Below are positions 1-1,963 of a stretch of 18,290 nucleotides of DNA, in pieces. How positions within the stretch are numbered: the first letter of the stretch is position 1; each line of letters starts with the position of its first letter. The notes below the pieces were generated by a model. That model was given only the letters and a program-made list of their open reading frames with translations. It had not been told where the DNA came from and made no database searches. This stretch comes from Clostridiales bacterium (GTDB lineage Bacteria; Bacillota; Clostridia; Christensenellales; Aristaeellaceae), in assembly GCA_012512355.1 (NCBI GenBank), contig JAAZEI010000026.1, positions 1 through 18,290 on the forward strand, written 5' to 3'. The translations under genes and the position numbers were made by a program.

Positions 1-677
1 AGACCGATGTGTTCACCCAGCACCTCACCCTTTTCCGTTTTCATAATTCCAGGGGTAGCGGGGAGGTAATTTTGTAAAAACGTTTTAAAATTCCGTTCTC
101 CAATGAAGCATATGCCGGTTGAATCCTTTTTATTGCTCACAGGCAGGGCATTGACCTTAGCAATTTCACGTACTTCATCCTTAGTAAGTTTTCCTACAGG
201 GAAAAGAGACTTTTTTAATTGGGTATCTTTGAGCATATATAGAAAATAACTCTGTTCTTTTTGAGGGTCGATCCCTTTGATTAGATGCCCCGTTTCATCA
301 GTTGAAACAAAATGACCCGTAGCAATTCTATCAGCATCCAACTTCATAGCAAAGTCAAGAAAAGCTTTAAATTTAATTTCTCTGTTGCATAGTACGTCAG
401 GATTGGGTGTTCTGCCTTTTTTATATTCTTCCAAAAATAACTTAAATACCCTCTCCTGATACTCTTTTGTAAAATTTACGGCATAATAGGGTATGCCGAT
501 GATGTCACAGCAATTTCGAACATCAGTCCAATCAGATTCTGCGGTGCAAACCCCATCGTCGTTTTCATCTTCCCAATTGTTCATGAAAACGCCGATGACA
601 TCAAAACCTTGATGCTTTAATAAGAGTGCTGAAACAGCTGAATCAACACCTCCGGACATTCCAACGATAACACGCAT
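1..677 (-). CDS. mnmA: tRNA-specific 2-thiouridylase MnmA, 3' end missing
   Basis: This is the N-terminal 225 residues of an enzyme that uses ATP and a persulfide sulfur to make 2-thiouridine at wobble position 34 of Lys, Glu and Gln tRNAs in the cytoplasm. Visible signs are the PP-loop ATP-pyrophosphatase motif SGGVDS at residues 8-13, the catalytic Cys97 in TPNPDVLCN, the ATGHF segment near residue 120, and the second catalytic Cys190 in DSTGICFIG. The family is about 360 residues long, so roughly the last third lies beyond the left edge. The ATG (675-677) overlaps the stop of the upstream kinase fusion by one base (TAATG), which implies translational coupling at the end of the greA-lysS operon. 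Identity is close to certain. Confidence 0.96.
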
Positions 678-1963
678 TAAGGCAGCCCAGCCTTTTCAAG
701 TCTTTCGCTCACCACAGATATGATGCTCTGAGCAATTTGCTCTAATTCACCACTGGCATCTATTTTTATAATGCGATCAGGATAAAGCAGAGCCAGCTTT
801 TGATATGCTTCCTCCACACGCGCATGGAAGCCATCGTCCATCATCTCAATGCGATCAGTTTCACTTGCGCTTTCTCTTCGCCTGAGCGCAGTCGAAGAGT
901 CAATTTCCAGCAGGAGCGTCAAATCGGGAACACAGTTATCTATAGCCGGAGCATTCATCTGTGAGATGACATCCATTCCAAGCATTCGCCCCGCGCCTTG
1001 ATAAGCAACGCTTGAATCGACATAGCGATCACTCATCACGATCTTTCCTGCTGTAAGAGAGGGCTTAATTACATCTCGCACATGCTGAGCCCGTGCTGCA
1101 GCCAAAAGTAGAGCTTCGGTCATATCCTGCATTCCCATATTGTCACGGTCGAGCAAAAGATAACGAATCTTTTCGGCTACCTCACTGCCTCCTGGTTCAC
1201 GAGTTTTCACAGTATTATAACCGCAAGATTGCAGATATTCAAATAACAAAACAGCCTGCGTAGATTTTCCGCAGCCGTCATTGCCTTCCAAAGTGATAAA
1301 ATAGCCACGATTGTTTTCAGTTCTTTTAACACCCAACAGAGAATACAAATCGTTAACAGACTCTGCTATATAGGTAGGGTTTGCCTGGATGATTTCGTCT
1401 TTGCTTCCATACCCATATAAAACTCCAATGCTGTCGATGCCAAGTTCATGAGCAGCATTGATGTCAGAAGCTCTGTCACCGATCATTACTGTATGTCCCC
1501 GGTCACCATCCAATGCCTTTTGTATAAGATTAGTTTTATCAGCAAAATGATCATTCTCAGAAGGACCAACAACTTTATCGAAATAATGTTCCAAGGAAAA
1601 ATGCTTCAAGATGATCTCAGATGAATTTTGTGGTTTTCCCGTAGCAATCGCCAAATAAGATGCGGATTCGCGAAGCGAGAACAACAGTTCTCTGATGCCG
1701 GGGAAAACCATATTTTCCTTTAAACCTTTTGTTAAATAACGAACTCTATATTCAGCAGTTGCTTTAATCGCATCTTCTTTGCTCATTTTGCAGTAACGAA
1801 TAAATGAATCTACCAAGGGAGGTCCCAGAAACTTGCGCAGCACACTCTCATGGGGAACCTCAAACTTTAGATTGTTGAGCGCAAAATGCAGACAATTAAT
1901 TATGCCTGGAGCAGAATCAGTTAAAGTGCCATCAAAATCAAAAATAACCGCATCATATTTCAT
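677..1963 (-). CDS. HAD-family phosphatase fused to thymidylate kinase
   Basis: One 428-residue reading frame carries two complete enzymes. Residues 1-213 are a HAD subfamily IA phosphatase (phosphoglycolate phosphatase/PpaX-like): motif I DFDGT with D9 and D11, motif II T108, motif III K143, motif IV GDRASD with D163 and D167, and a helical cap between motif I and about residue 85. Residues 219-428 are thymidylate kinase (dTMP to dTDP): P-loop 227-235 (GNDGCGKST), EPGGS 256-260, [11 protein letters not shown] 312-322, and an Arg-bearing LID at 361-371, as in the type with basic LID residues. Both halves have normal family length, and no Met lies near the junction to allow a separate kinase start. 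The start overlaps the upstream stop by 4 bases (ATGA), and the stop overlaps mnmA by one base. The kinase assignment is firm. The phosphatase substrate is unknown; phosphoglycolate, pyrophosphate or a nucleotide are all possible. Confidence 0.93.

Follow-up and report, generated by a model that had tools for sequence, protein, structure and literature searches.

How did a HAD phosphatase come to share one polypeptide chain with a thymidylate kinase, and what might it do there? The question is raised by an open reading frame on the reverse strand of the window, by which we mean the whole 18,290-nucleotide stretch of Clostridiales DNA that was analysed. The first-pass annotation had described a single chain with two full-length domains and intact catalytic motifs, and had suggested that the combination might regulate the dTMP/dTDP pool, clear a non-canonical nucleotide or serve metabolic channelling. 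The features that bear on the question are these:

1..677, reverse strand: mnmA, cut by the window end (NCBIfam MnmA, 319.2 bits, cut-off 284)
677..1963, reverse strand: HAD phosphatase–dTMP kinase fusion ORF (ATG start, 428 aa and a stop codon; both domains recognised by profile)
1334..1963, reverse strand: HAD domain with C1 cap, residues 1-210 (D9, D11; T108; K143; D163/D167)
1304..1333, reverse strand: linker, residues 211-220 (from model secondary structure and linker comparison)
680..1303, reverse strand: thymidylate kinase domain, residues 221-428
1256..1288, reverse strand: kinase P-loop, residues 226-236 (from conservation in 121 rows)
1960..2673, reverse strand: 237-aa ORF unmatched in Pfam and NCBIfam, directly upstream, in a 4-base overlap with the fusion start
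2689..4182, reverse strand: lysS, which with greA also lies ahead of the tmk operon in relatives
4200..4694, reverse strand: greA, likewise with lysS ahead of the tmk operon in relatives
13355..15649, forward strand: darA-holB-yaaT (ricT), without tmk here; relatives have tmk immediately ahead of holB-yaaT or darA-holB-yaaT

Domain architecture and reality of the fusion

The description of one chain with two complete domains holds. Residues 6-181 match the entire HAD_2 profile (Pfam; 105.6 bits against a cut-off of 23.8) and residues 225-414 the entire Thymidylate_kin profile (PF02223, Pfam; 163 bits against 27), and the fusion scores 178.1 bits with the NCBIfam dTMP kinase model TIGR00041, above its cut-off of 83.25. 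HAD motifs I-IV (DxDGT, T, K and GDxxxD) are all present in the HAD half, which has the core and helical-cap fold expected of a C1-capped HAD phosphatase. In an alignment of 121 rows, made up of the window protein and 120 relatives, D9 is kept in 119 rows, D11 in 120, and T108, K143, D163 and D167 in 121 each; on the kinase side, D312 is kept in 120 rows, and K233, R255, E256, P257, G258, R313, D370, R371 and E373 are kept in every one. The residues of what we take to be the P-loop, REPG, DR(Y/F) and DR.E motifs are thus all conserved. The two halves have diverged to a similar degree (identity averages 0.51 and 0.54 across 7260 pairs), and both domains are, on the evidence of their sequences, apparently active.

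In the predicted model the linker, residues 211-220, sits between a helix (203-210) and a strand (221-227); it is short, as had been proposed, but nearer 10 residues than the six or so first estimated. The accompanying claim that there is no internal start stands in so far as the window has no Met in residues 211-221, but the codon for L210 is TTG; among the relatives, 35 of 119 have a Met within 14 residues ahead of the kinase motif. The pTM of the whole chain in the predicted model is 0.90, which suggests a defined packing of the two domains and not a loose tether.

A merger of two adjacent genes through an assembly or sequencing artefact had been named at the outset as what could undo the observation, and it deserves mention since the adjoining HAD and tmk genes of relatives overlap by a few bases, so that a small error could merge them. 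A protein search with the fusion returned 1836 proteins at E <= 0.001 from 7999 scored candidates, and among the matches listed both domains are found in 120 of 120 relatives; eight of these carry a source name, in each case “dTMP kinase,” the taxa given being Christensenellales, Clostridia, Eubacteriales and Bacillota. In the order sample (apparently Christensenellales), 25 of 248 genomes have a full-length match, of which 24 are fusions; the 25th (G049) is a fusion of a decarboxylase with the HAD, beside a separate kinase. By family, the fusion is present in 18 of 18 listed genomes of the window's own family (f1; the 23 order-sample genomes without a match are not broken down by family), in five of the 10 matching f23 genomes and in one of three from f33. 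Linker lengths are similar in the 15 of 18 f1 rows that could be measured (6-9 residues; the other three had no motif match). The presence of two domains in all 120 listed relatives, and of the fusion in 24 genomes of the order sample, excludes both chance and sequencing error; the artefact is vanishingly improbable, and the join is confirmed as real.

Distribution, gene order and origin

The taxonomic mapping that had been proposed as a check places the fusion in one order. Beyond the 24 of 248 order genomes, the class sample (391 genomes, E <= 1e-70) gave matches only in the window's own genome and one other of its family, and the phylum sample (299 genomes, E <= 1e-70) only in the window's own genome, so that matches in both fell within that order; these counts come from genome samples, and no evidential weight was given to families missing from the Foldseek-derived rows. 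Viral contigs scanned with the window protein gave no match, a single-sequence query that reaches close relatives only.

The surroundings of the gene differ between the window's family and its relatives. In the window the ATG of mnmA overlaps the fusion's stop codon (TAATG), and the fusion lies directly before mnmA in 17 of 18 f1 genomes, the window included. The 237-aa ORF is upstream of the fusion in six of the 18 (the window and five others, 31-44% identity), and its relative in L111 is located farther upstream. Elsewhere on the forward strand of the window, a 477-aa ORF (5157-6590) has four PG_binding_1 stretches and is SleB-like (spore cortex-lytic enzyme), below that cut-off, and a 218-aa ORF (17380-18036) has no Pfam match. 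Many relatives share the order (greA-lysS-)decarboxylase-[HAD]-TMK-(darA)-holB-yaaT on one strand, in which Pfam assigns the decarboxylase to the Orn/Lys/Arg decarboxylases and it is presumably YaaO-like. No decarboxylase gene was found in the window, and one is upstream of the fusion in four of 18 f1 genomes; in four relatives whose HAD is separate or missing (L151, L157, L166 and L169), lysS and greA lie ahead of the tmk operon.

We classed 67 genomes by this arrangement, namely the fused, f23 and f33 genomes together with others picked from listed order-sample rows, which is not a random draw: 24 have the HAD-TMK fusion, 14 a separate HAD gene directly before TMK, three a decarboxylase-HAD fusion with a separate TMK, and 26 no HAD there. 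The arrangement in one f23 genome (G185) could not be classed. The 14 separate pairs fall in families f2, f15, f17, f21, f23 and f33, and are spaced by -89 to +11 bases, counted by the first possible start, with exactly -4 in six. The three decarboxylase-HAD fusions (L051, 8151-10196; L059, 725-2716; L060, 718-2739) have their tmk as a separate gene next door. Within f33, G056 has its fusion immediately ahead of darA-holB-yaaT, and in G077, the closest relative of G056, the genes are separate. In f15 the HADs next to tmk are divergent, long-branched sequences, and one genome (G001; L155, 8950-10453) has a tandem pair of such HAD genes ahead of tmk. Outside the order, a class sample of 89 genomes, a few of them from the order itself, shows no HAD adjoining tmk among its listed matches; the nearest pair (G287) is about 3 kb apart, with a HAD 25% identical. 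Among 74 named loci with an unlinked HAD, many on short contigs, tmk is found in one (L128), on the opposite strand and about 5 kb away.

In the kinase tree one branch (98/92) has all 41 HAD-linked kinases and nine HAD-free ones on one side and 17 others on the opposite side. A single clade of all fusions is rejected by both halves (p-AU 8.6e-5 for the kinase, 9.9e-8 for the HAD), as is a clade uniting the f1 and f23 fusions (kinase, p 0.008). A single clade of all HAD-linked kinases is marginal (p-AU 0.055, kinase tree), and one of all tmk-linked HADs is not rejected (p 0.61); the constrained HAD tree scored above the free tree, so the free search was not exhaustive, and a second HAD tree omits the divergent own-genome HAD of L002. 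By these trees, adjacent genes thus seem to have fused on more than one occasion. On the simplest reading the HAD gene would have arrived once beside tmk, been lost in some lineages, and fused separately in f1, f23 and f33. A single early fusion with many later fissions may also account for the pattern, though less simply, since overlapping genes would need to be recreated several times. Linker length is a weak argument for separate fusions, because only f23 stands apart (three residues in four rows and six in one, against nine in f33 and the range given above for f1). On the reading with separate fusions, the HAD gene would have come to sit, within the order, between the decarboxylase gene and tmk, would have become closely spaced with tmk, and would then have been joined to it repeatedly (f1, f23, f33), and within f23 also to the decarboxylase.

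The kinase, the HAD half and what their union may mean

PF02223 exceeds its cut-off exactly once in each of 28 genomes (24 with the fusion, three with decarboxylase-HAD fusions and one split). The possibility of a second, standalone tmk, which the first-pass annotation had flagged for checking, finds no support in any of the 24 fusion genomes (the window's being 79% complete); an additional match in G114 reaches only 22.8 bits, below the cut-off, and was rejected as a second copy. As dTMP kinase is expected to be essential and each genome has a single PF02223 match over the cut-off, the kinase half is very likely functional. Each of the 28 genomes also has a de novo route to thymidylate, through ThyX without a ThyA match in 25 and through ThyA without a ThyX match in three (the window's genome, G114 and G129). 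There are two ThyA matches in the window's genome. Thymidine kinase, which could recycle the thymidine released by a dTMP-cleaving phosphatase, is found in 17 of 18 f1 genomes (it is absent from the window's own, at 79% completeness), in none of nine from f23 and in none of three from f33. This distribution tracks family and not fusion, and thymidine salvage was rejected as a general partner; dUTPase (PF00692) is scattered, in 36 of 67 genomes.

In the 25 of 28 NCBIfam rows covered, the HAD half scores too low for every equivalog HAD model: 103.2 bits for NF009695 (cut-off 225) and 88.6 for TIGR01449 (180), both phosphoglycolate phosphatase, 84.9 for the PpaX pyrophosphatase NF009804 (218), 20.9 for the YjjG/YfnB pyrimidine nucleotidase TIGR02254 (159.9) and 30.1 for PynA (350). 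Assignment to phosphoglycolate phosphatase, PpaX or YjjG was rejected on these cut-offs. Standalone homologues among the matches listed come from Pseudomonas (34-38% identity), Paenibacillus, Streptococcus, Actinomycetota and Bacteroidota, and the HAD signature positions are much alike in fused, split and unlinked homologues, so the HAD half most likely keeps the activity of this widespread standalone family. The gene neighbours of unlinked homologues (69 proteins scanned) show no dominant family; AIR carboxylase and SAICAR synthetase occur twice each and OMP decarboxylase once.

By analogy, nucleoside 5'-monophosphates are a plausible class of substrate, because of what is reported of other HADs and because Pseudomonas aeruginosa PA0065, from a similar HAD group (CDD cd04302), is, we assume, a 5'-nucleotidase. 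A literature search for nucleotidase activity of this group (PA0065, cd04302) found nothing usable. According to excerpts of two papers, characterised intracellular 5'-nucleotidases are HADs for the most part (PMC8475336), and in a minimal cell HADs of a different subfamily appear to serve as deoxynucleotide phosphatases (PMC9426524).

In the account that we favour, and hold to be on balance probable, the cell's only recognisable dTMP kinase has a HAD phosphatase with intact catalytic residues fused to its N-terminus; the two active sites would work independently, the HAD half would hydrolyse small phosphomonoesters in a house-cleaning role, and the main gain would be fixed co-production. Fusion to tmk in separate lineages nonetheless hints at more than chance, and together with the pTM of 0.90 it speaks for some physical or regulatory tie. 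Fusion of the same HAD to the decarboxylase in three relatives argues against obligatory channelling, as had been entertained; that fusion and the failure to find thymidine kinase in f23 or f33 both speak against a tight dTMP cycle. Of the initial interpretation, the single chain, the apparently active domains and the sole tmk survive; a specific link to dTMP is disfavoured by the same observations, by a YjjG score far under its cut-off and by signature positions like those of unlinked HADs.

That link has its clearest form in the idea that the HAD half acts as a 5'-nucleotidase on dTMP, dUMP or non-canonical pyrimidine nucleotides, removing beside the kinase those monophosphates unfit to become triphosphates. 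The substrates of E. coli YjjG, also a HAD, include dTMP, dUMP and non-canonical pyrimidine derivatives (excerpt of PMC8475336), HAD-tmk linkage recurs in six families of the order with fusion seemingly more than once, and the purine and pyrimidine enzymes near some unlinked homologues are a weak hint in the same direction. We nevertheless think it rather unlikely, given the scores far under the YjjG and PynA models, the decarboxylase fusions, the absence of thymidine kinase from all nine f23 and three f33 genomes, and signature positions without clear change upon fusion; hydrolysis of dTMP itself would, moreover, be a futile cycle. It is similarly doubtful that a built-in gatekeeper, seemingly evolved repeatedly in one order, strips dUMP analogues or damaged dTMP within the molecule of the sole kinase.

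A Gph- or PpaX-type phosphoglycolate phosphatase or pyrophosphatase, tied to tmk through general DNA metabolism, would agree with the identity of the top NCBIfam models, and phosphoglycolate phosphatase structures do rank after the nearest uncharacterised ones; the scores do not reach half of either curated cut-off (225 and 218 bits), however, and the structures nearest to the HAD half (3mc1, 3sd7 and 2ah5) have titles no more specific than predicted or putative phosphatase or HAD-like hydrolase, which makes this quite improbable. Still less can be said for a HAD half that is no enzyme any longer and serves as a ligand sensor tuning the kinase: the high pTM and repeated fusion would suit a sensor, but the catalytic residues are retained and the HAD half matches the kinase approximately in its degree of conservation, and we consider it very unlikely.

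An enzyme expected to be essential has gained a second enzyme, apparently more than once. As the stages survive in relatives (separate, overlapping, and fused on either side), the order offers a good natural test of channelling against shared production. Were the phosphatase to act on pyrimidine monophosphates, the fusion would be a novel form of nucleotide-pool quality control and would give content to entries named only dTMP kinase (eight of the 120 listed).

Comparison with known systems

The first-pass annotation knew of no characterised fusion of this kind, and we likewise found no paper on one in open-licence PMC full text, outside which subscription papers largely lie; excerpts of PMC2700814 and PMC10653934 contain no description of a HAD-thymidylate kinase architecture. 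Among single enzymes, the HAD half resembles the COG0546-type HADs 3mc1 and 3sd7 (38-41% identity) and 2ah5 (31-33%), and PtkA (6f2x, 34-35%), which its depositors name a protein tyrosine kinase; in each case the likeness extends over the whole domain and the fold is the same. Unlike the window protein, these chains are not kinase-fused among the matches listed, and their titles name no substrate. The house-cleaning pyrimidine nucleotidase YjjG of E. coli, which the first-pass annotation had named as a known HAD acting on dUMP/dTMP, is likewise of HAD subfamily IA, but its model is matched at only 20.9 bits against 159.9.

A HAD phosphatase and a P-loop kinase within one chain are also found in the polynucleotide kinase/phosphatases PNKP and T4 Pnk. 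The kinase half here is instead Thymidylate_kin, and no polynucleotide-kinase model is among the five Pfam matches (E <= 0.001) of the window protein. A HAD_PNKP match was seen for P0014 only, under its cut-off; this 643-aa relative is a HAD-HAD-thymidylate kinase, with the phosphatase domain duplicated. In MtlD, the mannitol-1-phosphate dehydrogenase/phosphatase (7ocn and others), a HAD phosphatase is likewise N-terminal to another metabolic enzyme; the domains of MtlD serve one pathway, according to the entry titles, whereas no such relation is evident in the HAD-kinase fusion. Compared with the bacterial thymidylate kinase itself (TIGR00041, PF02223), the fusion differs by its N-terminal HAD phosphatase and, in f1, by the position of its gene, before mnmA (17 of 18 genomes) and not before holB-yaaT.
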